Under the pieces are notes generated by a model, which was given only the letters and a program-made list of their open reading frames with translations, did not search any database and was not told the DNA's origin. From positions 868,001-932,000 of the forward strand of contig NZ_CP157968.1 in NCBI RefSeq assembly GCF_040215725.1: DNA of 64,000 nt, read 5' to 3'. Of this stretch, positions 29,885 through 45,239 are shown piece by piece (within the stretch, counting starts at the first letter, position 1; each line of letters opens with the position of its first letter). The position numbers and the translations under genes were made by a program. Origin of the DNA: Rhizobium sp. ZPR4. Lineage in GTDB: Bacteria > Pseudomonadota > Alphaproteobacteria > Rhizobiales > Rhizobiaceae.

Positions 29885-32041
29885 TCAGGCATGGATAGGC
29901 TTGGGTGCGGTCAGCATCAAGGCATCCAGCGCCACTGCACCTTCGCCGTCGGGATAGATCACGACGGGATTGAGGTCTATTTCACGGATTGCCGGTTCGG
30001 CCAGTAGCAGCTGGCCGAGCGTGGCGATGATGCGGGCGGCGGCATTCACGTCGAGCGGCGGCGAGCCGCGGAAACCGCGTAGCAAAGGCGCATTCTTCAG
30101 CCGATGTAGCTCGCGGATAATAGCGTCATCTGGCAGATCGGGCGTCAAGATGCGGACGTCCCCAAGAATCTCCGCCGTAACGCCGCCGAAGCCCGCGAGG
30201 ATCACAGGTCCCCAATCCGGATCATTGCGCGCGCCGATGATCAGCTCGATGCCGCGTTTGCCCATGGCTTCGATCAGCACGCCGTCCAGGGCGAGGCCTG
30301 GGCGATGGCGCGCGATATCGGCATGCAGCCGGAGCCAGCCCTCCTTGAGGCTGGTTGCGTCCACCAATCCGATAACGACGCCACCCGCATCGCTCTTGTG
30401 GCTGAGATCGGGCGATTGCGCCTTCAGCACCACGGGATACCCAATCGCGGCAGCTGCCGCGAGGGCTTGTTCAAGGGTTGTTGCCAGGCGGCCTGCAGGA
30501 AAGGGAATTCCGAGTGGCGCCAGGATTTGCTTGGCCTGATATTCGGGAATGACACCTCCCTGCGAGGGGAGGCCGGCAATCGCGACCGGTGCCACGGTGC
30601 GGGTGGCGATGTCGCGAGCCGCGAATGCGTCAATGCGTTTCAGCGCTCGGAAGGCCCGTTCGGTCGACGGGAAATAGACGATGCCGAGCGCCCGCAACTG
30701 CGCGATATAGTCCGCCGGGATGGGAGCACCCTCATCGAGCCCGGCGAAGATCAGCGGTTTTGCCGGCTTGCGCTCTCGCACCGCTTTCAGGATCGGCGGC
30801 AGCTTGATGGCTGAGGTGACAGGGTCGGTCTGGATGATGCAGGCGACAATGCTAGCAAAACGGGTATCGTCGAAGAGGGCGGTGAGCGTTTTGTCGTAAA
30901 GGTCCGGCTCCACGAGGCCCTGTGCCGTCAGATCCAGCGGATTGCTGACGCCCACGAAGGGCGGCAGGACGGCGCGCAGCGCCGGCGCGGTCTCATCGTT
31001 AATCGGAGGAAGATCCAGCCCAAGCTCCTCACACAGATCGAGCGTCAGCGCCTTGAACGCGCCGGATTCGCCAAGCACCGCTGGGCCTCCAGCCGGAAGG
31101 GCCGGGCACCGCAGGGCGATCTCGGCGATGTCACCAAGTTCCTCGAGCGTCTCGGCCAGAATGACGCCGGCACGCGCGACCTTGGCGCGCATGACCTGAT
31201 AGTCACCGGCCAAGGCACCGGTGTGGGTTGCGGCGGATTCACGCGCCGCACTGCTCCGGCCGGGATGAAGAAGGACGATCCGCTTTCCCTTCGCATATGC
31301 TTTGCGCGCCGCGGCAAGGAAACGGACTGGCTTGCGGAATTGTTCAACGATCATCGCGATGACCTTCGTGGAGGCGTCCTGCACCAGAAACTCCACATAG
31401 TCTTCGACGCCGCTTGCGGCTTCGTTGCCGGTCGAAATGGAATAGGAGAGGCCCAGATCGCGGCTGGCGAAGGTCACGCCAAGGACGGCAGCCATGGCAC
31501 CGCTTTGCGACACGATCGCAATGCCCGGCCTGGCGCCGAGTTCCTCTGACGCAGTTTCGATGAAGGTCAGGGGGATGCGGTCAACATGGTTGACCATGCC
31601 GAGGCAGTTCGGCCCCTCGATCACCATTCCCACCTCGGCCGCTATGCGGGTGATCTCGCGTTGATCGGCCAACCCTTCCTCGCCGCCCTCGGCAAAGCCC
31701 GCCGAAAAGATCACCGCCGCACCAACACGACGGCGGGCAAGCGCCTCGATCGAGGGAAGCACGGCTGCGCGCGGCACGGCAAGAACGGCCGCATCCACGC
31801 CGTCGGGCAGGTCATCGATCGAGGCGAGGCAGGGCCGTTCGCCGATCTCGGTCCGTTTGGGGTTGATCAGATGAATGGCACCGGCATAGCCGCTGCGGTC
31901 GAGATTGGACAATACCGAAGCGCCAAGCGCGCCGGGCTTGTCGGAGGCGCCGACGATCGCCACCGATCTTGGACGCAGCAGCCGTTCCATCGAACCGCTG
32001 GGAAGAGCCGATGGGCGCGCGCTAGTGGTCTCGACCGTCAT
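29885..32041 (-). CDS. ferA: Feruloyl-CoA synthetase, ADP-forming acyl-CoA synthetase family
   Basis: A 718-residue single-chain ADP-forming acyl-CoA synthetase. A CoA-binding domain opens it (MERLLRPRSVAIVGASDKPG); the phosphohistidine-type segment is SAATHTGALAGDYQVM; an ATP-grasp domain lies at the C-terminus (GYPVVLKAQSPDLSHKSDAG). It starts 13 bases after the feruloyl-CoA hydratase/lyase gene with GAGGAGCG between them. Sphingobium FerA is of this family, unlike the AMP-forming Fcs of pseudomonads. It would activate ferulate, coumarate or caffeate. A longer frame to 32200 overlaps the upstream gene and is less likely. Confidence 0.85.
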   Translation of the reverse strand: MTVETTSARPSALPSGSMERLLRPRSVAIVGASDKPGALGASVLSNLDRSGYAGAIHLINPKRTEIGERPCLASIDDLPDGVDAAVLAVPRAAVLPSIEALARRRVGAAVIFSAGFAEGGEEGLADQREITRIAAEVGMVIEGPNCLGMVNHVDRIPLTFIETASEELGARPGIAIVSQSGAMAAVLGVTFASRDLGLSYSISTGNEAASGVEDYVEFLVQDASTKVIAMIVEQFRKPVRFLAAARKAYAKGKRIVLLHPGRSSAARESAATHTGALAGDYQVMRAKVARAGVILAETLEELGDIAEIALRCPALPAGGPAVLGESGAFKALTLDLCEELGLDLPPINDETAPALRAVLPPFVGVSNPLDLTAQGLVEPDLYDKTLTALFDDTRFASIVACIIQTDPVTSAIKLPPILKAVRERKPAKPLIFAGLDEGAPIPADYIAQLRALGIVYFPSTERAFRALKRIDAFAARDIATRTVAPVAIAGLPSQGGVIPEYQAKQILAPLGIPFPAGRLATTLEQALAAAAAIGYPVVLKAQSPDLSHKSDAGGVVIGLVDATSLKEGWLRLHADIARHRPGLALDGVLIEAMGKRGIELIIGARNDPDWGPVILAGFGGVTAEILGDVRILTPDLPDDAIIRELHRLKNAPLLRGFRGSPPLDVNAAARIIATLGQLLLAEPAIREIDLNPVVIYPDGEGAVALDALMLTAPKPIHA

Positions 32042-32054
32042 GGTAGGGCGCTCC

Positions 32055-32894
32055 TCAGGCCTGGTGCTTGGATTTGTCATAGGCCCCAAGACCGGGCTTG
32101 TAGGTCTTGTCGTCGATGAACTGCTTGATACCTTCCTTGCGTCCCTCGTTATCATAACTGTTGGCCGCTTCCTGGGCGCGCACGAGGTAATCCTCCGCAT
32201 TGTCGTAGGTCATCTCCCGCACGCGGCGAATGGCATCCTTGGTGGCTTTGAGTGCTACAGGGTTCTTTTGCAGCAGGATGTTGGCGACATCGGTCACGCG
32301 CGCCTTCAACTGCGCAAGCGGCAGGGACTCGTTGACGAAGCCCCATTCGGCCGCCTTCCTGCCGCCGATGTTCTCGCCGGTCAGCGCGTGGTACATGGCG
32401 TTGCGGAAGGATGTGAGCTCGGTCGCCACCTTGGCGGCGCCACCGCCGGGCAGAATGCCCCAGTTGATCTCGCTCAGTCCGAATTTGGCTTCATCGGCGG
32501 CAAAGGCGAGGTCGCAGGCGAAAAGAGGCCCGTAACCGCCGCCGAAGCACCAGCCGTTCACCATGGCGATGGTCGGTTTCTGATACCAGCGCAACCGGCG
32601 CCACCAGCCATAGCTCTCACGCTGTGCCTTACGCGTACCCTGTAGACCGTAAGCCTCGGTCTCGCGGAAATATTCCTTGAGATCCATACCTGCTGACCAG
32701 GCCGTACCCTCGCCGGACAGAACCAGTACACCGACATCGGCCCGAAACTCGACCTCGTCCAGAACCTCCATCATGCGCCGATTGAGCGTGGGGCTCATGG
32801 CATTGCGTTTCTCCGGGCGGTTGAAGCTGACCCAGGCGATACCGGCTTCAACGACAAAGGCGACGGTATCTTTTTCGGGATGTTCTGTTGTCAT
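32055..32894 (-). CDS. ferB: Feruloyl-CoA hydratase/lyase
   Basis: A 279-residue crotonase-fold enzyme. AFVVEAGIAWVSFNRPEKRN opens the family signature; MVNGWCFGGGYGPLFACDLA forms the oxyanion hole; the acid/base Glu lies in FGLSEINWGILPGGG; SYDNEGRKEGIKQF holds the C-terminal Tyr that distinguishes hydroxycinnamoyl-CoA hydratase/lyases. It hydrates feruloyl-CoA and splits it into vanillin and acetyl-CoA, the key carbon-carbon cleavage of the pathway. First gene of a ferB-ferA operon, divergent from a MarR regulator as in Sphingobium and Rhodopseudomonas. Confidence 0.92.
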   Translation of the reverse strand: MTTEHPEKDTVAFVVEAGIAWVSFNRPEKRNAMSPTLNRRMMEVLDEVEFRADVGVLVLSGEGTAWSAGMDLKEYFRETEAYGLQGTRKAQRESYGWWRRLRWYQKPTIAMVNGWCFGGGYGPLFACDLAFAADEAKFGLSEINWGILPGGGAAKVATELTSFRNAMYHALTGENIGGRKAAEWGFVNESLPLAQLKARVTDVANILLQKNPVALKATKDAIRRVREMTYDNAEDYLVRAQEAANSYDNEGRKEGIKQFIDDKTYKPGLGAYDKSKHQA

Positions 32895-33774: not shown

Positions 33775-34761
33775 TTATTCTGCTGCGGTGAGGTCGGGGC
33801 GATAGCCGGTATCGATGACGATCCGTCCGCCGCAAGCCCGCGAAACGCAGGCGCACATGCGTGAATTTTCCTGCCGCTCGGCTTCGGAAAAGAAAACATC
33901 GCGGTGGTCGATCACGCCATCCGCTTCGATGATGTTGACGGCACAGAGTCCACATTCGCCGCGGCGGCAATCGAAAACCATGTCGACGCCGGCCTCCACC
34001 AAGACGTCGAGCATGGATTGGTCGGCCCGAACCCGAACATGGGCACCGAGTTTAGCGACTTCGACATCGAAGGCCTGCTCGGCAAAGCGGCCGTTATCGC
34101 CAAAGACCTCATAGCGCAGGCGACTCATCGATCGTCCGCTTTTCTGCCAAGCCTGCCGCGCTGCCTCCAGGAGGCCGAGCGGGCCGCAGATATACGCCTC
34201 GCCATCCGGCGGCAGGGCTGCAAATTCGGAGTCGAGATCGAGAGCCTCGCCGTCATCCTGAGCAAAGACCTGCAACCCGTCGCCAAGCAGCGCGGCAAGC
34301 TCGTCGAGGAAGGCCATTTGCCGACGGCTCTTCGCGGCATAGGCTAGCCGGAGTTTCTGCCCGCGCGAGGCGAGTGTTTTCGCCATGCCATAGATCGGGG
34401 TAATCCCGATGCCGCCGGCAATCAGGAGATAACGGGAGGCGCGCCAGGAAAGCTCGAAGCGGTTCTCCGGCTCCGTCAATTCAGTGTCATCACCCGGTTG
34501 CAGCTGCCAGATGAACGCCGAGCCGCCGCGGCTGTTCGGGTGAAGCTTCACGGCTATGGAAAGCGTGCCGGGCCGTCCGGGTACAACGGTATAAGTGCGG
34601 ATCGTCGGTTCTCCGTTGATCTGTACCCTGATATTGGTGTGTGAGCCGGGATCGAAGCCGGCACGCAGGCCTTCGACGGCGAAGGTCACCGCCCGCACAT
34701 TCTCGGCGATCGTTTGTGCCTCAATGACCCGCGCCTTGCGCCACTCCAGTCTGGACCGCAT
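33775..34761 (-). CDS. vanB: Vanillate O-demethylase reductase subunit
   Basis: A 328-residue reductase of the phthalate-dioxygenase-reductase type. FMN/NAD-binding domains come first (residues about 1-230, with YLLIAGGIGITPIYGMAK) and the plant-type [2Fe-2S] domain last, with cysteines in DCRRGECGLCAVN and, further on, SRMCACVSRA. It passes electrons from NADH to the VanA oxygenase. The start has GGGAGGGAAAT ahead. It is the third gene of a vanA-gntR-vanB unit on the minus strand; the regulator between the two subunits is unusual. Confidence 0.9.
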   Translation of the reverse strand: MRSRLEWRKARVIEAQTIAENVRAVTFAVEGLRAGFDPGSHTNIRVQINGEPTIRTYTVVPGRPGTLSIAVKLHPNSRGGSAFIWQLQPGDDTELTEPENRFELSWRASRYLLIAGGIGITPIYGMAKTLASRGQKLRLAYAAKSRRQMAFLDELAALLGDGLQVFAQDDGEALDLDSEFAALPPDGEAYICGPLGLLEAARQAWQKSGRSMSRLRYEVFGDNGRFAEQAFDVEVAKLGAHVRVRADQSMLDVLVEAGVDMVFDCRRGECGLCAVNIIEADGVIDHRDVFFSEAERQENSRMCACVSRACGGRIVIDTGYRPDLTAAE

Positions 34762-34840: not shown

Positions 34841-35584
34841 TCAGCCGGACATCAGCGCCAGCGCTAGCACCTTGCGGCGCAGGTCTGGTTGTTCTTCCGT
34901 GACGAAATCCAGGTTTTGACGTGCCAGGCGTGCATGTTCACGCGCCAGCGCTTCGGCGCGCGCGCCTTCGCGCAGTTCGATCGCGGCAATGATCGCCCTG
35001 TGCTGCGTCTGCGCGACCACCAGCGTGCGTTGAAAGGCCGGCACGTCCGCTTCCGTATTGACGAATGCATTGGGGCTGGCAAACGGCAGGCTGGTGATCC
35101 GCTCGATCTCTCGGCTCAGGACATCGCTGCCGCATAGGGCTGCGAGTTGTCGGTGAAAACGTTCGTTCAGCATTTCATAGAGCCCGAAATCCATGGCGCC
35201 CGGTCCCGGCTCGACGACACGGTCGAGATTGGCGACCACGTCCGAAATCGCCTTCAGCTTTACCGGTGGCACGCCGCGTTCTGCTGCCAGCCGCGCGGCT
35301 GTGCCTTCGAGAACGCCGCGAAGTTCTATGGCGTCGATCACGTCTTGGCGGCTGAAGCCGCGGACAGCATAGCCGCCCGAGGGGATCATGACGACCAGCG
35401 CTTCCTGTTCCAGCTTTTGCAGGGCGGCCCGTAACGGCGTACGAGACACCTTCAGCCGGGCGGCGAGCGCCACTTCTGAAAGCCGCTCTCCGGGCAGCAC
35501 CTCGCCTTTGAGCACGAGATCACGAAGGCCGGTCAGGGCCTTTGCCGTCTGCTGTTTGGGGGCGCCGTCCTGTTCTGTCGCCAT
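34841..35584 (-). CDS. GntR-family regulator, VanR-like
   Basis: A 247-residue FCD-class GntR protein. The helix-turn-helix region includes LSEVALAARLKVSRTPLRAA; the FCD domain has ELRGVLEGTAARLAA and NERFHRQLAAL. The ATG stands three bases after the vanA stop, and vanB follows, so it is within the operon it should control. VanR proteins repress vanAB and let go when vanillate is present. Two TGTATACA-centred palindromes beyond vanA are good operator candidates. Confidence 0.88.
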   Translation of the reverse strand: MATEQDGAPKQQTAKALTGLRDLVLKGEVLPGERLSEVALAARLKVSRTPLRAALQKLEQEALVVMIPSGGYAVRGFSRQDVIDAIELRGVLEGTAARLAAERGVPPVKLKAISDVVANLDRVVEPGPGAMDFGLYEMLNERFHRQLAALCGSDVLSREIERITSLPFASPNAFVNTEADVPAFQRTLVVAQTQHRAIIAAIELREGARAEALAREHARLARQNLDFVTEEQPDLRRKVLALALMSG

Positions 35585-35587
35585 GCC

Positions 35588-36649
35588 CTACTCCGCCGCC
35601 ACAGCGGTGGCGTTTTCTCGTGGATTGATTTCTTCGTCGATCATCCGGTCGATAAGCTTGCGAGCCCACATCGTACCGGCATCGATATTGAGATTGTAGA
35701 ATTGATGATCGGGATTGGCCTCGATCGCGATCTGCTGTGCTTGAAGCACCGCCTCATCCTCGCGGAAGACACCGGCGACGCCCTCGCGCAGTTCATGCGT
35801 GCGAGCCTGGTTATGCAGGTCGTAATTTCGGGCAAAGGCCCAGAAATACAGACAGGTGTTCTCAGTCGACGGCGTGATCGTGTTTAGGACGTAGCCGTTC
35901 ACGCCTTGCGAGCGGTCTCCCTGCTCGGCGCCAGTACCGGCGGCCGCGACACCGACATCAATGGTGACGGTGCAAGGAGCCTCGAAGCGAATGATCTGCC
36001 AGCGATCCACCTTGCCAGGCTTGCCATATTGTTTGCGCCAGAAGGGTGGAGGGTCGATCTCATGCATCCACCTGGTCACATAGGCGAAGCGGTCGGAATG
36101 GCTGGCTTCGAAGGGGGCTTCCGCCACGGCGCGATCGCCGATCGAGGAACCGTGCACGAAGGTTTCATGGGTGAGATCCATCAGGTTGTCGACGACAAGG
36201 CGGTAATCGCATTTCACCTCAATCAGCTTGCCGTCAGCGGCCCAACCGGGATCGTCGTTCCAATGCAGGTCAGGGATCAGCGCCGGGTCGGCGAGTGCCG
36301 GCTCGCCCGGCCAGATCCAGACGAAGCGGTGCTTTTCGGCGACTGGATAGGATTTGACGCAGGCCGATGGATTAATGGTGTCCTGTGACGGCATGTATAC
36401 ACAGCGGCCGGTCTCGTCATATTCGAGGCCGTGATAGCCGCATACCACGTTGTCGCCATCAAGCCGACCGAACGAGAGCGGCACCAGCCGGTGCCAACAG
36501 GCATCCGCCAAGGCTGCGGGCGTGCCATTTTCCTTGCGATACAGCACGATTGGCTTGTTGCAGATGGTGCGCGGCAGCAGCGCGCGCTTCAGCTCCACAT
36601 CGTAGGCGGCAGCATACCAGGCATTCAGGGGAAAGGTTGATCGCTTCAT
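35588..36649 (-). CDS. vanA: Vanillate O-demethylase oxygenase subunit
   Basis: A 353-residue Rieske oxygenase. The Rieske cluster ligands are in CWHRLVPLSFG and CGYHGLEYD; the mononuclear iron site is in DNLMDLTHETFVHG. MKRSTFPLNAWYAAAYD is the usual VanA start, at 36649 after GGAGG; a longer frame to 36685 is less likely. It converts vanillate to protocatechuate and formaldehyde with electrons from VanB. Formaldehyde disposal genes are not in the window. Confidence 0.92.
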   Translation of the reverse strand: MKRSTFPLNAWYAAAYDVELKRALLPRTICNKPIVLYRKENGTPAALADACWHRLVPLSFGRLDGDNVVCGYHGLEYDETGRCVYMPSQDTINPSACVKSYPVAEKHRFVWIWPGEPALADPALIPDLHWNDDPGWAADGKLIEVKCDYRLVVDNLMDLTHETFVHGSSIGDRAVAEAPFEASHSDRFAYVTRWMHEIDPPPFWRKQYGKPGKVDRWQIIRFEAPCTVTIDVGVAAAGTGAEQGDRSQGVNGYVLNTITPSTENTCLYFWAFARNYDLHNQARTHELREGVAGVFREDEAVLQAQQIAIEANPDHQFYNLNIDAGTMWARKLIDRMIDEEINPRENATAVAAE

Positions 36650-36686
36650 CTCATCTGTCCTCCTCAGATGGCTTAAGGAGCGCACG

Positions 36687-36773: not shown

Positions 36774-38567
36774 TCAACTGATAAGGCCAAGTTTTTTCAA
36801 TCTGTATTCCAGCTTGGCGCGGGTGAGGCCAAGGCTGCGGGCAGCGGCCGAGACATTGCCGGCCGCGGCCCGCAGCGCCTCCCGGTAGAGCGTGTCTTCG
36901 GCGGCGGCAAGGTCGCCTGGCGAGGCGATAAGGCCAGGATGCGAGACAGCGATGGGTATATCCTTCGGCTTTATCCGCCCATCCCGGTTCAACGTCTGCG
37001 GAAACGTCAGGGGGGCTTCGCCACTCGTGAAGAGATGGTGGATATCGACGAGGCCACCAGACTCGGCAAAAATCACGCCGCGTTCGATCAGATTCTGCAG
37101 TTCACGGATATTGCCCGGGAAGTCATAGGCCAAAAGCGCATCGATCGCTCGTCGCGACAGGCCCATGATATTGCGGCGGTGGCGTTCCCGGAAAATGCGC
37201 AGGAAATGATCGATCAGCATCGGAATGTCATCGCGTCTGTCGCGCAGCGGGGGAATGACGATCGGGAAGACACAGAGGCGGAAATAGAGGTCCTGCCGAA
37301 ACCGTCCGGCGCGCACTTCGCCTTCAAGGTTGACATTGGATGCCGCCACCACCCGTACGTCGGCCGGAATGGTGCGGATGCCGCCGACCCGCTCGATCTG
37401 CCGCTCCTGGATGGCGCGAAGCAGCTTTCCCTGTGCGGCATAGGCGAGCGAAGCGATCTCGTCCAGAAATATGGTGCCGCCCGCAGCCCGCTCGAAATAT
37501 CCCGGCCGGGATGCGATTGCGCCGGTATAGGCCCCCTTTTCGACGCCGAACAGCTCCGATTCCACCAGGTTTTCGGGGATCGCAGCGCAGTTGATCGGCA
37601 CGAACGGGCCACTGGCCCGGCCGCTCAGCCGGTGAAGCTGCTGCGCAAAGACCTCCTTGCCAACGCCGGATTCGCCGATCAGCAGCACGGTGGCCTCGGT
37701 ATCGGCGACCTTTTCCACCATCAGCCGGGCGCGCAGGAAACTTGCCGATACGCCGATGACCTGGCTAGAACCAGCGGCTTCGGACGGACCGGCCTTCGCC
37801 GGCGGCTCGGTCGACTGCAATGTCGGCTCGGCGCTCCGACGAACGATGCGGCGGGACCTCGGCCATTCAAGCCCGAGGTAAGCGCGTTCCGGTGCGTCGT
37901 CGCCCCATTCCTCCGCATTCTGGCCCACCACTTTGCAATGGGATGCCCCCATGCCGGCGCACTCGACTTCGCGAAAGATGACGGGGCGTCCGAAAAGCGT
38001 GCTGGTATAGCCGCTGGGATAGCCCGTCTGCATCCAGCAGACCGGCGCGCTGGCAAGGCCGTGATGGGCGATGTGTTCGGCGGCTTCGGAGGAATCGTGC
38101 CAGTCGAACTCGCCGAAGTAGGTGCCTCGGGCGCTGTCGAATTCGAAATGCCGGGTGGTGACCTTGACGAAGCCCTCGAGGGTGTGGACCCGTGGCCCGG
38201 CCGCCAGCGCGTGGGTCAGATCCTCGTTCGGAAAACGCTTTTGGATCAACTCCGCATCGCGCACGCCCTGCATGTAGCCGACCCGCATGAACATGGCCGT
38301 GGCGGTTTCGACCCCGAAGGCTTCGATGATCTCCTGCCGGAGCCGGCCCAGAACCTGCGACTGCATCAATACCATGCGCTGATCGTTCAGCCAGATGCGT
38401 CCATCCCCGATTGCGAAGTGAAGGGCCTCGGTCAACTCGGTCAATGTCGGGGACGCCCCGGTGTCGAGCTCGCTATACGCGCCGCGCGACAGCATCTTGC
38501 CGGTCCGTTTGGATGCATCGGCCAGGGAGATCAGGTGCGGCGGAAGCGTGCGCTTGGGCATGATCAT
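36774..38567 (-). CDS. Sigma54-dependent activator, XylR/DmpR/MopR class
   Basis: A 597-residue activator. The N-terminal XylR_N/V4R sensor covers about residues 20-235, the AAA+ domain about 270-510 (Walker A GESGVGKE at 298-305; GAYTGA loop at 345-350) and the Fis-type helix-turn-helix the C-terminus ([20 protein letters not shown]). His128 and Trp156 sit 28 apart, and Cys177, Glu200, Cys203 and Cys211 follow at the spacing of the MopR phenol pocket (His106, Trp134) and zinc ligands (155, 178, 181, 189). It should therefore bind a phenol. It diverges from the ALDH/SDR operon, which has a sigma54 promoter. Confidence 0.93.
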
Positions 38568-38597
38568 CTTTCATGGAATTCTGAAAATAACGAAGCT

Positions 38598-38637
38598 ATT
38601 CATCATCTAATGAATTTCGGCAAGCCAATTTCCGAAA
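38598..38637. promoter_or_regulatory. Candidate activator-binding dyads upstream of the sigma54 promoter
   Basis: ATTCAT at 38598-38603 and ATGAAT at 38610-38615 form a perfect dyad; TTTCGG at 38615-38620 and CCGAAA at 38632-38637 form another, sharing one base. They lie about 90-130 bases upstream of the -24/-12 element, the usual place for enhancer sites of XylR-class activators, and just ahead of the activator gene. Confidence 0.5.
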
Positions 38638-38725: not shown

Positions 38726-38741
38726 TGGCACGCGCCTTGCT
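38726..38741 (+). promoter_or_regulatory. Sigma54 (-24/-12) promoter
   Basis: TGGCAC, five bases, then TTGCT: an exact match to the sigma54 consensus TGGCAC-N5-TTGCA/T. Transcription would start near 38752, about 130 bases before the ALDH ATG. The activator gene lies immediately upstream in the opposite direction. Confidence 0.88.
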
Positions 38742-38883: not shown

Positions 38884-40356
38884 ATGAATATCCAAATCCA
38901 TAGTTTCATCGATGCCGAGCGCTGGACCGGCCGCGCCTTCTTCGGCGGCTGGGATCGGACCGAAGCGGGGACGATCAATGTCATTGATCCCGCCAACGGA
39001 ACGGTTCTCACCTCCGTCGGGCTTGGTGGGCCAGCAGACATCGCCCGTGCCGCTGGCGAGGCACGCGCTGCCCAGAAGGCCTGGGCAAAGATGCTTGGCG
39101 CGGAGCGTGCGCGCATCCTCAACAAGGCCGCGGAATTGCTGGAGGCAAACGGTAAGGAACTCGCCCAGTGGATCATGAAGGAGTCCGGCTCGATCCATCA
39201 GAAGGCGATGATTGAGATCGAGCACGGAGCGCTTTTCATTCGCCATGCGGCAACACTCGCCACGGCTCCCTCCGGCGTGTTCCTTCCCGGCATGGATGAT
39301 CGTGAAAACTATGCCCGACGTGTGCCGCATGGCGTCGTCGGCGTCATCTCGCCGTTCAATTTTCCGCTCGTTCTCTCGGTTCGTTCCATTGCCGCCGCGC
39401 TGGCGGTCGGCAATGCGGTGGTGCACAAGCCCGATCCGCGCACGCCGATCTCCGGCGGCATCATCATTGCCCGTATTTTCGAGGAGGCCGGCTTGCCGGC
39501 GGGCATTCTGCATATCGTGCCCGGCGGCGCAGATGCCGGCGAAGCTCTCTGCAGCGATCCGAACGTGGCGATGATCTCTTTCACGGGCTCCGCCCGCGGC
39601 GGTGCCAAGGTTGGCGAGATAGCCGGCAAGAACCTGAAGCGTGTTCAGCTCGAACTTGGCGGCAAGAACGCGCTAATCATTCTTGATGATGCCGATCCTG
39701 ACGTCGCGGCCTCCAATGCCGCCTGGGGCGCGTTCCTTCACCAGGGTCAGATTTGCATGGCAACCGGCCTGATTCTCGTTGACGAGACGATCGAACGGGC
39801 GGTGACTGAGCGGCTGGTCGCAAAGGCCGCGCAGCTGCCAGTTGGCGATCCCTCGAGCTACCAGGTGGCGCTCGGGCCGATCATTTCGGATGCCCAGGTG
39901 ATGGCGATCCAGGCGATCGTCGACGACGCTGTGACAAAAGGCGCCCGATTGCTCGCCGGCGGTAGCGGAAAGGGGCGCTTCTATCCCGCAACCGTGCTCT
40001 CTGGCGTGAAGCCCGGCATGCTCGCCTTCGAGGAGGAGATCTTCGGCCCTGTCGCCTGTATCGTCTCTTTCCGCAGTGACGAAGAGGCGATAGCGCTTGC
40101 CAACCGATCCGACTACGGCCTCGCCGCCGGGGTCATTTCCGCCGATATCGGCCGGGCGATGGCAGTCGGACAAGAGCTTGAGGTTGGCCAACTGCACATC
40201 AACGACCAGACGGTCAATGGCGGGCCATATGCCCCCTTCGGCGGACGCGGCAAATCGGGTAACGGCACGCGGGTGGGTGGCCCGGCGGACATCGAAGAAT
40301 TCACCCAATGGCAGTGGGTTTCGATCAAGAACGCCGCAACACCCTATCCGTTCTGA
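38884..40356 (+). CDS. Aldehyde dehydrogenase, vanillin/benzaldehyde type, copy 3
   Basis: A 490-residue aldehyde dehydrogenase. Base Glu lies in LELGGKNALIILDDADPD, nucleophile Cys in GQICMATGLI, and SFTGSARGGAKVGEIAG binds the cofactor. The start at 38884 follows GAGGAGG; the longer frame from 38782 lacks family sequence. It is less similar to the other two and closest in pattern to vanillin/benzaldehyde dehydrogenases (Vdh), so it may finish the step from vanillin to vanillate. Driven by the sigma54 promoter at 38726 and cotranscribed with the next SDR gene. Confidence 0.9.
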   Translation: MNIQIHSFIDAERWTGRAFFGGWDRTEAGTINVIDPANGTVLTSVGLGGPADIARAAGEARAAQKAWAKMLGAERARILNKAAELLEANGKELAQWIMKESGSIHQKAMIEIEHGALFIRHAATLATAPSGVFLPGMDDRENYARRVPHGVVGVISPFNFPLVLSVRSIAAALAVGNAVVHKPDPRTPISGGIIIARIFEEAGLPAGILHIVPGGADAGEALCSDPNVAMISFTGSARGGAKVGEIAGKNLKRVQLELGGKNALIILDDADPDVAASNAAWGAFLHQGQICMATGLILVDETIERAVTERLVAKAAQLPVGDPSSYQVALGPIISDAQVMAIQAIVDDAVTKGARLLAGGSGKGRFYPATVLSGVKPGMLAFEEEIFGPVACIVSFRSDEEAIALANRSDYGLAAGVISADIGRAMAVGQELEVGQLHINDQTVNGGPYAPFGGRGKSGNGTRVGGPADIEEFTQWQWVSIKNAATPYPF

Positions 40357-40446
40357 TCTGCCTGCATTTTCGTCCATTTTCGCGATCGAGCCCCGGACCG
40401 CCTGACTGCGCCCGGTTCGACGCCTTCCAGAACAAGGATGATACCC

Positions 40447-41214
40447 ATGAACTTTCACGGAAAAACAATCGTCGTCACCGGCGCGTCCTCCGGCATTGGG
40501 GGCGAAGTCGCTCGCCTGGCACGCTTTCATGGCGCACATGTTATCGGTCTTGATCGGAACGATCCGATGCTGACGCTTGACGGCTTCATCAAGGCCGACC
40601 TGAGTGATCCCTCCGCAATCGACATAGCCGTGCGCTCACTGCCCGGGCAGGTCGACGCGCTGATCAATGCGGCGGGCGTGCCCGGAACCGCCGATCGGGC
40701 TCTCGTCGCGAAAGTCAATTACCTCGGGCTTCGCCACCTCACCGAAGTGCTGGTGGCGCGGATGCCCAAGGGGGCATCGATCGTCAATTTTGCCTCCATT
40801 CTTGGCGCTGAGTGGCCCAAACGTGTCGAGGCTCATCATGCGCTCGCCGCGACGAAGAACTTCGCCGAGGGACTGGCCTGGCTAAACGACAACCCGGTCG
40901 CACAAGAGACTTGCTATCAGTATTTCAAGGAGGCGCTGATTGTCTGGACGCGCGCGCGTAGCTCCGATCTGTTCATGCGGTACGACATCCGCATGAATTC
41001 GGTGGCACCGGGGCCGGTCTTCACTCCGATCCTTGGCGATTTCGTCACCATGCTGGGCGAAGAACGGGTGCAGCGAGACGCGGGCCTGATGAAGCGCCCT
41101 GCCTTTGCTGACGAGATTGCCGGACCCACCCTATTCCTCTGCTCGGATGCCGCTCGCTGGGTGGTCGGCGTCAACCTGGCAGTCGATGGCGGCCTGGCGG
41201 CGACCGCTCTCTGA
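40447..41214 (+). CDS. Short-chain dehydrogenase, coniferyl-alcohol dehydrogenase-like, copy 2
   Basis: A 255-residue SDR starting MNFHGKTIVVTGASSGIGG. The catalytic serine follows NFAS; Tyr and Lys lie in CYQYFKEAL. The region before them (LAWLNDNPVAQETC) is longer than in classic SDRs, as in CalA. It parallels the gene at 21661-22446. It follows the ALDH by 90 bases on the sigma54 transcript, so an aryl alcohol-to-aldehyde step feeding that ALDH is likely (coniferyl or vanillyl alcohol). An ATG nine bases upstream is an alternative. Confidence 0.85.
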   Translation: MNFHGKTIVVTGASSGIGGEVARLARFHGAHVIGLDRNDPMLTLDGFIKADLSDPSAIDIAVRSLPGQVDALINAAGVPGTADRALVAKVNYLGLRHLTEVLVARMPKGASIVNFASILGAEWPKRVEAHHALAATKNFAEGLAWLNDNPVAQETCYQYFKEALIVWTRARSSDLFMRYDIRMNSVAPGPVFTPILGDFVTMLGEERVQRDAGLMKRPAFADEIAGPTLFLCSDAARWVVGVNLAVDGGLAATAL

Positions 41215-42279: not shown

Positions 42280-43623
42280 TTAGGTTGCGAGCCGAACGTG
42301 GGTGCCAATATTTGGTGTCGTGATTTCGAGGCGCATGCCATGCAGCCTTGCGATCGCTGAAACCAGGCTCAATCCCAAACCATTGCCGGGGGCATGTCGG
42401 CTTTTCTCGGCCTTATAGAAGCGGCGAAGCACGGCGTCGGCCTCTTCTGCGCGGATCCCTATGCCGGTATCCTCGACGGTCACAGCCACTCCGCGCTCTG
42501 TGCCTTCGACGCGGACGGTTGCGCTCCCTCCCGGCGGCGTAAACTTGATCGCGTTGTCAATCAGATTGGCGATCGCTTCGAAGATCAGGCTCGGGTCGCC
42601 TGAGATGATCGCTGGCTGCTCCGTGCTCGACATATAGGCAAGAGTGACCGCGCATTCATCGGCTGCGGGCTCGAAGAAATCGACGGCATCGCGTGCGATC
42701 TCCTTCAAATCGATATCGACGAAGCCTGATCTCCGCAGGCCATCCTCCACTTCCGAGATACGCAGAAGTGCGCCAAACGTCTTGAGAATGCCGCGTATCT
42801 CGTCGAGCGCTTCGTCGATATAGCCGTGATATTCATCGATACTGGTCGCGCGCCGGCGCGCGCGCTCAAGGCTGCCCAGCAGGCGGGTGAGCGGCGTACG
42901 CATATCGTGGGCGATATTGTCGCAAACGCCCTTGACTTCCTGCATCAGGCGCTCGATTTCGTCGAGCATTTCATTGACCACTTTGGCGAGGCGATCGATG
43001 TCGCCGCCGGCGCGGCCTGTCGGCAGTCGCTGTTTGAGATCTCCCTTCATGATTTGCGCTGCGGCGCCAGACATGGCGTCCAGCCGACGAACCGCGCCGA
43101 AGCCGACGGCGATTGCGCCCGCAAGTCCCAATATCGCTGTTGTCAGCGCCGCGAACAACGTCGCATTTTCGAGACGCTCGCGAAATTCGCGCTGCTCATG
43201 CAGACTTTGTGCGACAAGGATGGAGGAGCCATCGGCGCGCCGATGCAGCAACCCTCTATAGTGATATTTCCTTGGGGTGCTGTGGTCGACGAAATCGAAG
43301 GGAGCGTCGACAACGGATCCTTCGGGATAGGTGAGCGGGATTCCCGCCACGAGCTTGCCATCCCGATCGAAAAGCGAAAAGGGGCGCTCGGTGTTCGTCA
43401 AATCTCGGCTTCGGGCGGATAGGCGTGAAACGACCGCGTCCGTCGGCAGGTTCTGAAGCGATTGCATCTCGCGCCTCAGCCATTCGTCGCTTCGCTGGTC
43501 GAGAAAGTCCTGCATCTGCCAATCGACGAACAGAAACAAAGCACTTGCTGCCGCGCCGAACACGAGCAGGAAGGCAAGCGCCAAGCGGAAGCCGCTCGTC
43601 CTGAAAAGTTCAATTGGCCGCAT
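42280..43623 (-). CDS. Sensor histidine kinase
   Basis: A 447-residue membrane kinase. The N-terminal helix (LALAFLLVFGAAASALFLFV), a periplasmic domain of about 130 residues, a second helix near residue 160 and a HAMP linker (IMKGDLKQRLPTGRAGGDI) lead to the phospho-accepting His in NIAHDMRTPLTRLLG and the ATPase boxes NLIDNAIKFTPPGG and DTGIGIR. It overlaps the end of the response-regulator gene by 14 bases, so the two form a pair. The target signal is unknown; the neighbouring RND pump suggests a toxic small molecule. Confidence 0.92.
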   Translation of the reverse strand: MRPIELFRTSGFRLALAFLLVFGAAASALFLFVDWQMQDFLDQRSDEWLRREMQSLQNLPTDAVVSRLSARSRDLTNTERPFSLFDRDGKLVAGIPLTYPEGSVVDAPFDFVDHSTPRKYHYRGLLHRRADGSSILVAQSLHEQREFRERLENATLFAALTTAILGLAGAIAVGFGAVRRLDAMSGAAAQIMKGDLKQRLPTGRAGGDIDRLAKVVNEMLDEIERLMQEVKGVCDNIAHDMRTPLTRLLGSLERARRRATSIDEYHGYIDEALDEIRGILKTFGALLRISEVEDGLRRSGFVDIDLKEIARDAVDFFEPAADECAVTLAYMSSTEQPAIISGDPSLIFEAIANLIDNAIKFTPPGGSATVRVEGTERGVAVTVEDTGIGIRAEEADAVLRRFYKAEKSRHAPGNGLGLSLVSAIARLHGMRLEITTPNIGTHVRLAT

Positions 43624-44293
43624 CGAGAATATAGCCTGAGCCACGAAGCGTTCGGATCAGGGGCGTAAGGCCAGGCAGATCCAGCTTCTTGCGAAGTTTG
43701 CTGATATGGACGTCGATGACGTTCGTCGCCTCGCCGTAGCGGTAGTGCCAGACTTCTTCGAACATCATCGTGCGTGTAACGATCTGACCGGAGTGCCGGG
43801 CGAGATATTCAAGCAACTGATACTCCCGCGGCAGGAGATCGATGATGTTGCCAGCCCGGCTGGCGGTATGTGTCAGGAGATTGATTTCAAGATCGCCGAC
43901 TTTGAGAACCGTCTCCTGAGCCGTGTTGGTTCGGCGGCGCATGAGGACATCCAGCCGCGCCGTCAGCTCGAGCGCTTCAAACGGCTTCGTCAGATAGTCG
44001 TCGCCGCCGGCCTTGAGACCGCGTACCCTTTCGTCGACCGCTGAAAGCGCACTCAAAATCAGGACCGGGGTCTGCACGGACGCGGCCCGTAAGGCAGCCA
44101 GCATTCCGAGCCCGTCAAGCGTGCCGGGCAGCATGCGATCGAGCACGATGGCATCAAATGTGCCGGAAATCGCCTTGACCAGTCCATCCCGACCGTCGAC
44201 CGACTGTGTAACGGTGCAGCCGTGGTCCACAAGTGCCGCCTCGATTTCCGACGCCGTCCCCAGATCATCCTCGACCACGAGTATCTTCGACAC
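43610..44293 (-). CDS. OmpR-family response regulator (partner of the kinase)
   Basis: A 227-residue regulator. The receiver domain starts VSKILVVEDD, has the acceptor Asp in IVLDRMLPGTLDG and Lys in DYLTKPFEALEL; the C-terminal winged helix has LLPREYQLLEYLARHSGQIV and VIDVHISKLRKKL. I chose the GTG at 44293 because GGAGGAAAT precedes it; the same frame stays open far upstream without family sequence. It diverges from a second response regulator across 135 bases. Confidence 0.92.
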   Translation of the reverse strand: MSKILVVEDDLGTASEIEAALVDHGCTVTQSVDGRDGLVKAISGTFDAIVLDRMLPGTLDGLGMLAALRAASVQTPVLILSALSAVDERVRGLKAGGDDYLTKPFEALELTARLDVLMRRRTNTAQETVLKVGDLEINLLTHTASRAGNIIDLLPREYQLLEYLARHSGQIVTRTMMFEEVWHYRYGEATNVIDVHISKLRKKLDLPGLTPLIRTLRGSGYILDAAN

Positions 44294-44428: not shown

Positions 44429-45100
44429 ATGCGCCTGCTGGTAGTTGAAGATGATGACCGAAGTGCGGCCTATCTGAAGCGAGGCCTCTCCGAATCCGGG
44501 CATGTCGTTGATGTCGCAGGCGATGGTGAATTCGGCCTTGCACTTGCAATGGAGCTGATCTACGACGGCCTGGTGGTGGATCGGCTTCTGCCCAAGCTTG
44601 ACGGCATCGAGCTCGTCAGGCGCCTTCGCGAGATGAAGGTCAATGTGCCGGTGATCATGGTGAGCGCGCTGGCGAGCTCGATGGATCGTGTGGAGGGGTT
44701 GCGTGCCGGCTGCGACGACTACCTCGCCAAGCCCTTCTTCTTCTCCGAACTCCTTGCCCGCATCGAGGCCATTACGAAGCACTTCGTAGCGGATGGCTAC
44801 GAGAACACGCTGGTCGTGGGCGATTTGTCGCTCGATCTTCGGCGGCGAATTGCGCGCAGGAAGGAACGCATCATTGATCTGCAGTTCAGGGAATTCCTCC
44901 TTCTGCAGGCTCTTATGCGCAACGCAGGTTCCGTCGTAACCCGTGCGATGCTGCTTGAGGCCGCGTGGGACTACGACTTCGATCCCCGAGGTAATATCGT
45001 CGACATGCATGTCCATCGTTTGCGCAAGAAGATCGACATGGGCGCAACGACAAGCATGATTATCACGGTTCCAGGCGCCGGGTATCTCATCAAGCCATAA
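44429..45100 (+). CDS. OmpR-family response regulator without adjacent kinase
   Basis: A 223-residue regulator. MRLLVVEDDDRSAAYLKRGL starts the receiver; the acceptor Asp is in GLVVDRLLPKLDG; Lys lies in DYLAKPFFFSELLAR; the winged helix ends MHVHRLRKKIDM and GAGYLIKP. No kinase gene follows; it could be phosphorylated by the kinase at 42280. The RND pump genes start 140 bases downstream on the same strand, so it is the likely direct controller of the pump. Confidence 0.9.
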   Translation: MRLLVVEDDDRSAAYLKRGLSESGHVVDVAGDGEFGLALAMELIYDGLVVDRLLPKLDGIELVRRLREMKVNVPVIMVSALASSMDRVEGLRAGCDDYLAKPFFFSELLARIEAITKHFVADGYENTLVVGDLSLDLRRRIARRKERIIDLQFREFLLLQALMRNAGSVVTRAMLLEAAWDYDFDPRGNIVDMHVHRLRKKIDMGATTSMIITVPGAGYLIKP

Positions 45101-45239
45101 TCCGCGGCTTCGGCGAAACATAAAAAATTTTTCATCCTGGCGCGAATTACCAGCCATTTGCGATCCGTCACATTTCCAAGCATCGCGTGACGGGTCTCCG
45201 TGTCCCTGCGCAATTTTGAACGCTTTATGGAGTTTTGCA

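Follow-up and report, generated by a model that had tools for sequence, protein, structure and literature searches.

Phenol-sensing activators and the Rhizobium locus

PoxR, DmpR (CapR), and MopR are sigma54-dependent activators linked to phenol hydroxylase genes, and they have in common a domain order, a sensor that aligns without gaps, a His/Trp dyad, a Cys-Glu-Cys-Cys zinc site, a GA[FY]TGA loop, a -24/-12 target promoter, and upstream inverted repeats. Here, we describe a regulator with all of these features, encoded in a 64,000-nucleotide stretch of DNA from Rhizobium sp. ZPR4 (contig NZ_CP157968.1, positions 868,001 to 932,000 of the forward strand; referred to as the window, with positions counted from its first letter). 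The gene, a 597-codon open reading frame on the minus strand (36774..38567), was characterized by profile searches for its domains and by alignment of its residues. Unlike the phenol hydroxylase-linked regulators, it is associated with aldehyde and alcohol dehydrogenase genes, and unlike MopR, it differs at five of 13 pocket positions, including a clade-specific proline (Pro184). Based on these features and on the conservation of its surroundings, the activator probably senses a phenolic aldehyde or alcohol and drives the adjoining aldehyde dehydrogenase (ALDH) and alcohol dehydrogenase genes from a sigma54 promoter.

Ferulate and vanillate genes are controlled by HcaR-type MarR and VanR-type GntR regulators, which share this catabolic neighborhood (the window contains both a MarR and a GntR gene) but belong to other families and are not sigma54 activators. 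Among V4R sensors, larger phenols are recognized in Aromatoleum, where EtpR responds to p-ethylphenol and p-hydroxyacetophenone and PcrS to p-cresol (PMC4630880, PMC10715001). By description, both sensors keep the His/Trp dyad, the authors' models give them an enlarged pocket that takes para-substituted phenols, and both serve anaerobic pathways, PcrS as part of a two-component system, unlike the one-component activator of the window. An earlier, sequence-only reading of this DNA had proposed a specificity unusual for the class. Among the matches listed from the open-licence PMC literature, as far as their text was available, no regulator of the XylR/NtrC type was found described for vanillin, vanillyl alcohol, or coniferyl alcohol genes. 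Because PcrS and EtpR have already been reported, however, sensing of a larger phenol would not in itself be novel.

Domain architecture and comparative dataset

By all sequence features examined, the window protein is a XylR/DmpR/MopR-type one-component activator. It combines XylR_N (residues 45-144; 114.6 bits), V4R (157-214; 50.0 bits), AAA+ (Pfam Sigma54_activat; 218.2 bits), and Fis-type helix-turn-helix (HTH) domains (563-593; 29.1 bits), all of which exceed their Pfam cut-offs and follow the order typical of the family. The AAA+ domain carries both the sigma54-contact loop, GAYTGA at residues 345-350, and the DE pair of Walker B (TIFLDE). The 7.7 Mb source genome has a single XylR_N match and a single rpoN match. 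Across Rhizobiaceae the XylR_N domain is sporadic, with a match in 23 of 297 sampled genomes, and the nearest fetched relative, Rhizobium rhizogenes 17-2069-2c, is identical over the 235-residue sensor query.

We retrieved 77 loci by sensor sequence alone, which together with the window make 78 orthologous loci (55 from Hyphomicrobiales, including the window, and 23 from Rhodobacterales). Residues and loops were scored in 77 orthologs (the window and 76 fetched loci, leaving out the truncated L078) against 44 more distant comparators, a set that leaves out L116 (327 amino acids), L117 (no sensor), and L139 (an ortholog). Loci L079-L095, mostly second copies of other loci, and row L001, which is the window itself, were dropped from the neighbor, residue, promoter, and loop counts, and the repeat counts omit L078 and L070.

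Conserved target genes and control region

The window ALDH (38884..40356, plus strand; likely ATG start at 38884) is followed on the same strand by a short-chain dehydrogenase/reductase (SDR) at 40438..41214 that matches the coniferyl-alcohol dehydrogenase model NF009092 (378 bits, cut-off 242). This pairing is constant: in 77 of the 78 loci, the regulator has a divergently transcribed ALDH (59-100% identical) that begins no more than 1.2 kb away, and the next slot, at about 1.75-2.0 kb, is occupied by an alcohol dehydrogenase in 75, either an SDR (47 loci) or a zinc-containing medium-chain dehydrogenase/reductase (MDR; 28 loci). Both bacterial orders contain occupants of both types, a pattern of non-orthologous replacement at a fixed place, and since unrelated SDR and MDR proteins share one slot, they seem to fill one role. 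Among solved relatives whose substrate is named, the best for the one MDR compared (from L069) is benzyl alcohol dehydrogenase 1f8f, which stands second in the full list, and a Neorhizobium galegae plasmid copy of the locus is annotated as benzaldehyde dehydrogenase plus coniferyl-alcohol dehydrogenase. The next clade, found elsewhere in the phylum (L099-L102, L104, and L107), retains the ALDH in all six loci and an SDR in the slot in five; among the 38 remaining comparator loci, an ALDH takes that place only in L128 and L129, at 30-32% identity.

A -24/-12 sigma54-type promoter, TGGCACGCGCCTTGCT, lies at 38726..38741 on the plus strand and points at the dehydrogenases, confirming as sequence an element that the earlier reading had named. 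It is the sole exact match in the window, where 31 matches at two or fewer mismatches compare with 31.4 expected by chance. Genome-wide, exact -24/-12 sites number eight, against 12 for a reversed control pattern, and the exact match was therefore rejected as significant by itself. Because the exact match alone is weak, the stronger evidence comes from conserved placement. Under a 15-point scheme of our own weighting, with the start anchored on the sensor alignment, all 55 Hyphomicrobiales loci, the window included, reach at least 13/15 and 53 reach at least 14/15. At the same two thresholds the reverse strand yields four and zero loci, and five Markov shuffles yield 1-5 and 0-1.

Two inverted repeats precede the -24 element by about 110-160 bp, the distance at which enhancer sites of such activators are usually found. 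The first putative operator copy, TTTCATGGAATTCTGAAA (38569..38586), has one mismatch to TTTCAT-N6-ATGAAA, and the second, ATTCATCATCTAATGAAT (38598..38615), which follows 29 bp after the first, has two. Counted descriptively, the pattern is present at two or fewer mismatches in 39 of 54 Hyphomicrobiales loci (Markov mean 1.08) and 17 of 22 Rhodobacterales loci (0.68), and a control stretch further in contains it in one of 54 and none of 22 even at three mismatches. The repeat resembles sites at other family members, and we infer that it serves as the operator. A search of the source genome with the repeat returned at least 160 matches on each strand, where a control gave 50, and no regulon was drawn from it.

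The phenol sensor and its pocket

The sequence-only reading had located six landmark residues (H128, W156, C177, E200, C203, and C211) and reported that their intervals equal those of MopR with a shift of 22. Both statements hold: residues 42-223 align without gaps on MopR 20-201 (61 of 182 identical), placing the six on MopR H106, W134, C155, E178, C181, and C189, such that the dyad and the zinc ligands are all present. Coincidental spacing is ruled out by phmmer E-values of 4e-41 for MopR, 6e-54 for PoxR, and 1e-45 for DmpR/CapR, with PoxR as the closest solved sensor (186 bits versus 144 for MopR). The six landmarks are complete in all 77 orthologs and also in 36 of 44 comparators; being this common across the XylR_N/V4R family, they mark the family rather than which phenol binds, and the proposition that they prove the ligand class was rejected on this count. 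XylR itself has a Tyr in place of the dyad His (PMC7264223).

The stronger claim, that the MopR pocket is kept residue for residue, is true of the six landmarks and not of the pocket as published, where only eight of 13 residues are identical. The MopR pocket comprises H106, W134, F99, P103, V112, V114, F132, Y161, A162, Y165, Y176, I191, and S166 (PMC10715001), and the window equivalents, in the same order, are H128, W156, L121, P125, V134, V136, F154, Y183, P184, Y187, F198, V213, and T188. Of the five differences (F99L, A162P, S166T, Y176F, and I191V), alignments show L121 and T188 also in PoxR, and F198 and V213 in DmpR. At position 184, which corresponds to MopR Ala162, all 77 scored orthologs have Pro and all 44 comparators have Ala. 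A weak AlphaFold model built from 28 sensor sequences (mean predicted local distance difference test, pLDDT, 68) matches the PoxR, MopR, and DmpR sensors first, with template-modeling scores by target length of 0.81 for PoxR (5fru) and 0.78 for MopR (5kbh). Direct phenol sensing, as originally predicted, is well supported by homology in the dyad, the zinc site, the fold, and the domain order. The accompanying suggestion of a pocket tuned to a larger phenol fares unevenly: the neighboring genes back a phenolic alcohol or aldehyde, but the pocket residues give no support.

An ordinary phenol or cresol sensor of the PoxR/DmpR kind, with phenol as the effector and the dehydrogenases as incidental neighbors, would likewise show the anchor residues and zinc site of the phenol sensors seen in the window protein, and the status of PoxR as the closest solved sensor, together with the prior occurrence of four of the five pocket changes in PoxR or DmpR, is in its favor. 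We nevertheless regard it as quite improbable, considering that the divergent ALDH recurs throughout the orthologs (77 of 78) and the next clade (six of six) but in only two of the 38 other comparators. Moreover, no phenol hydroxylase occurs among the eight window neighbors scanned (ALDH, SDR, VanA, VanB, GntR, MarR, Ech, and CoA ligase), the rest of the genome not having been searched. The original observation that the regulator adjoins alcohol and aldehyde genes rather than phenol hydroxylase thus stands for these eight neighbors, with the two dehydrogenases conserved across loci.

Under the preferred reading, a phenolic aldehyde or alcohol would be bound by a dimer of the V4R sensor, with His128 and Trp156 holding the phenol hydroxyl and zinc on C177/E200/C203/C211 shaping the pocket. 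The bound ligand would free the AAA+ domain from repression. Assembly of the protein would take place at the pair of TTTCAT-N6-ATGAAA repeats (38569-38615), and the GAYTGA loop would drive sigma54 RNA polymerase at 38726. Transcription of the ALDH and alcohol dehydrogenase genes would then allow the aldehyde or alcohol to enter the vanillate/protocatechuate route.

Several observations weigh against this reading. The loci are not independent, as several of those from Rhizobium are near copies that inflate the counts. One locus, L020, is without an ALDH (2,446 upstream bases covered), and three are without the alcohol dehydrogenase: L020, L037 (1,422 bases covered), and L056. The locus sister to the clade, L122, comes from a genome of the same class as the window; its sensor is 62% identical, and this locus, which has GAFTGA and an Ala at position 184, shows no ALDH match, and no good -24/-12 element was found upstream of it; its VanA- and VanB-like genes are 3.2 and 5.1 kb away on the divergent side. 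As to the repeat, 15 of the 54 Hyphomicrobiales loci are without it at two or fewer mismatches, its counts are descriptive because the pattern was derived from the same regions, and its specificity to the clade was rejected upon finding a perfect copy at the phenol hydroxylase-linked Acinetobacter MobR locus (L136). In the sensor, either PoxR or DmpR already has each of the changes F99L, S166T, Y176F, and I191V, which by themselves therefore predict no larger ligand; Pro184 is a clade-specific change of the pocket wall for which the reading does not account; and the model falls below a pLDDT of 50 at residues 124-132, directly at the pocket. Lastly, coniferyl-alcohol dehydrogenase is a family name that, for the window SDR, calls for care. 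The Pseudomonas putida protein called CalA is a relative of yeast ADH6 and hence of the MDR kind, unlike the window SDR. Its supposed function as a coniferyl-alcohol dehydrogenase was shown to be wrong, the protein being a vanillin reductase (PMC7054097).

Neighboring genes and candidate ligands

On the minus strand, the regulator is followed by a set of genes suggestive of ferulate and vanillate catabolism. These are a vanillate O-demethylase oxygenase with VanA_C and Rieske domains (VanA; 35588..36685); a GntR/FCD regulator (34841..35584) that separates the vanillate demethylase pair and is VanR-like as judged by this position; a reductase with FAD/NAD and 2Fe-2S domains, VanB-like and named VanB by position (33775..34761); a p-hydroxycinnamoyl-CoA hydratase/lyase (Ech; 32055..32894; NF006588, 469 bits, cut-off 276), of a kind that makes vanillin from feruloyl-CoA; and a CoA ligase (29885..32200), whose position makes it a putative feruloyl-CoA synthetase (FCS). 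The latter name is usually given to AMP-forming ligases; with its ATP-grasp/succinyl-CoA-ligase-like domains, the window protein is not of that kind. When scored against solved relatives, the window ALDH is best matched by benzaldehyde (346 bits) and 4-hydroxybenzaldehyde (342 bits) dehydrogenases, with a solved vanillin dehydrogenase at 277 bits. Since the genes scanned near Ech include no other ALDH, it may be the vanillin dehydrogenase.

In the wider dataset, counted anywhere in the retrieved stretches, the 55 Hyphomicrobiales loci include VanA in 15, Ech in 14, FCS in eight, an esterase in 15, LivK in nine, and PobA in two, and the 23 Rhodobacterales loci include LivK in 18, an esterase in seven, PobA in six, and VanA, Ech, and FCS in none (LivK-like importer genes being 36-46% identical to the query). 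The constant core would convert an aromatic alcohol through the aldehyde to the acid, and the exits look like those toward vanillate or 4-hydroxybenzoate. This combination of a conserved core with variable exits points to a phenolic aldehyde or alcohol as the ligand, coniferyl alcohol being one candidate only. The likely ligands, judging from gene content, are guaiacyl or 4-hydroxyphenyl compounds, namely vanillin or vanillyl alcohol, coniferyl alcohol or aldehyde, and 4-hydroxybenzyl alcohol or aldehyde; among them, coniferyl alcohol is possible.

An effector that is specifically coniferyl alcohol or coniferaldehyde, a C6-C3 monolignol rather than a C6-C1 compound, would suit the match of the window SDR to the coniferyl-alcohol dehydrogenase model, and with Ech and the putative FCS, a route from coniferyl alcohol through ferulate and vanillin to vanillate could be complete in the window. 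However, the side genes are poorly conserved, with Ech and FCS in 14 and eight of 55 Hyphomicrobiales loci and both in none of the 23 from Rhodobacterales, while PobA, near in six of the latter, suits C6-C1 4-hydroxyphenyl compounds at least equally. The window ALDH, in addition, scores highest with benzaldehyde and 4-hydroxybenzaldehyde enzymes and, as the one ALDH scanned near Ech, may be the vanillin dehydrogenase. We therefore hold a monolignol-specific effector to be doubtful, if possible.

The dehydrogenase pair could alternatively be controlled by a broad-range detoxification switch for aromatic aldehydes, oxidizing or reducing whichever toxic aldehyde is present. One promoter ahead of an aldehyde and an alcohol dehydrogenase fits such a role, the alcohol dehydrogenase slot is swapped among unrelated families, and a detoxifying role has been described for an aromatic aldehyde reductase of P. 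putida (PMC7054097). The nearby LivK-like importers and esterases counted above suggest uptake and catabolism instead, and a switch of this type seems unlikely to us.

Further along the window, translations read as two OmpR-like response regulators side by side, at about 43610-44290 (minus strand) and 44429-45100 (plus strand), near a histidine kinase (42280-43644, minus strand) and a membrane-fusion/efflux-like gene that begins at 45216.

A possible change of output in Rhodobacterales

Bacterial enhancer-binding proteins (bEBPs) that act at sigma70 promoters and have no GAFTGA motif include NtrC of Rhodobacter capsulatus, NtrC of Caulobacter, and VspR, and the R. capsulatus protein needs ATP binding rather than hydrolysis (PMC10274813). 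The Rhodobacterales orthologs of the window regulator are likewise without the sigma54-contact loop. In contrast to these proteins, which sense nitrogen or phosphate, the orthologs carry a V4R phenol sensor, and they share their repeat and target genes with loop-bearing relatives. Among the matches listed from the open-licence PMC literature, as far as their text was available, we found no description of a V4R-sensor bEBP without GAFTGA.

The 23 Rhodobacterales orthologs (L054-L077 except L073) have sensors that are 51-61% identical, in which the dyad (H128 and W156) and the zinc ligands are retained along with T118, P125, T138, F141, F154, P184, and F198. Tyr183 (MopR Tyr161), present in 52 of 54 Hyphomicrobiales proteins, gives way to Val in 12 of the 23 and to Ala in the remaining 11. 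Phe replaces Tyr187 in 13 of 23, and Ala replaces Val134 in nine. With Val or Ala at position 183 in all 23, the ligand may differ in this order. A GAFTGA-type loop is found in none of the 23, with a 12-column gap in 22, and Walker B reads ND instead of DE in 22 of 23; in L072, a Maritimibacter metagenome-assembled genome (MAG), the AAA+ domain appears truncated or frame-shifted. By comparison, all 54 scored Hyphomicrobiales proteins have both the loop (38 GAFTGA and 16 GAYTGA) and DE. Pfam still recognizes the AAA+ domain in L054 and L062, the two examined. For the -24/-12 promoter, no Rhodobacterales locus scores at least 14/15, and the one that reaches at least 13 is within the shuffle range of 0-5.

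An rpoN match was obtained in 12 of 23 Rhodobacterales genomes, compared with seven of seven other genomes searched. Absence of a match in the other 11 is unsure for drafts and MAGs; five of them bear strain names rather than MAG titles (L057, L062, L067, L069, and L075). The proposal that GAFTGA was lost because sigma54 itself is gone fits only partly, in view of the 12 genomes with a match. In an unrooted tree of 76 sequences, built from sensor columns only and with 16 Rhodobacterales rows left after thinning, Rhodobacterales form one clade (100/100), whose sister Pannonibacter (95/92) has both loop and promoter. The loop state changes twice on this tree, and one change suffices in 0% of 200 bootstrap trees (5-95% range 2-2). 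Our reading is that the loop was lost rather than gained.

Taken with the retained DNA site and neighboring genes, these data incline us slightly toward a scenario in which the V4R sensor of Rhodobacterales moved from sigma54 activation to housekeeping promoters. The regulator perhaps binds ATP without hydrolysis. The replacement of Tyr183 in all 23 proteins, with which the ligand may have changed, tempers this view.

A second loop-less V4R clade, from Rhizobiaceae and one Pseudosulfitobacter plasmid (L096-L098, L132-L135, and L137), has decayed Walker motifs and is encoded divergently from LivK-like genes; L137 also has a gene of the 2,4'-dihydroxyacetophenone dioxygenase family. On a Parageobacillus plasmid (L143:3929-5857, plus strand), XylR_N and V4R are joined to a PucR-type HTH and a GGDEF-like domain, representing a third output mode. 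This PheR-type protein was rejected as a precedent for loss of GAFTGA, since it has no AAA+ domain match at all.

Biological significance

The wider interest comes from what may be a single sensor circuit with two outputs, sigma54-dependent in Hyphomicrobiales and loop-less in Rhodobacterales. If the preferred reading of the window regulator is correct, rhizobia and their relatives would possess a one-component sensor dedicated to lignin-type phenolic alcohols and aldehydes, and biosensors for vanillin-like compounds could be built on this natural scaffold. Comparing the two orders would provide a natural experiment on how an enhancer-binding AAA+ activator can leave sigma54 while its sensor, DNA site, and targets are retained.

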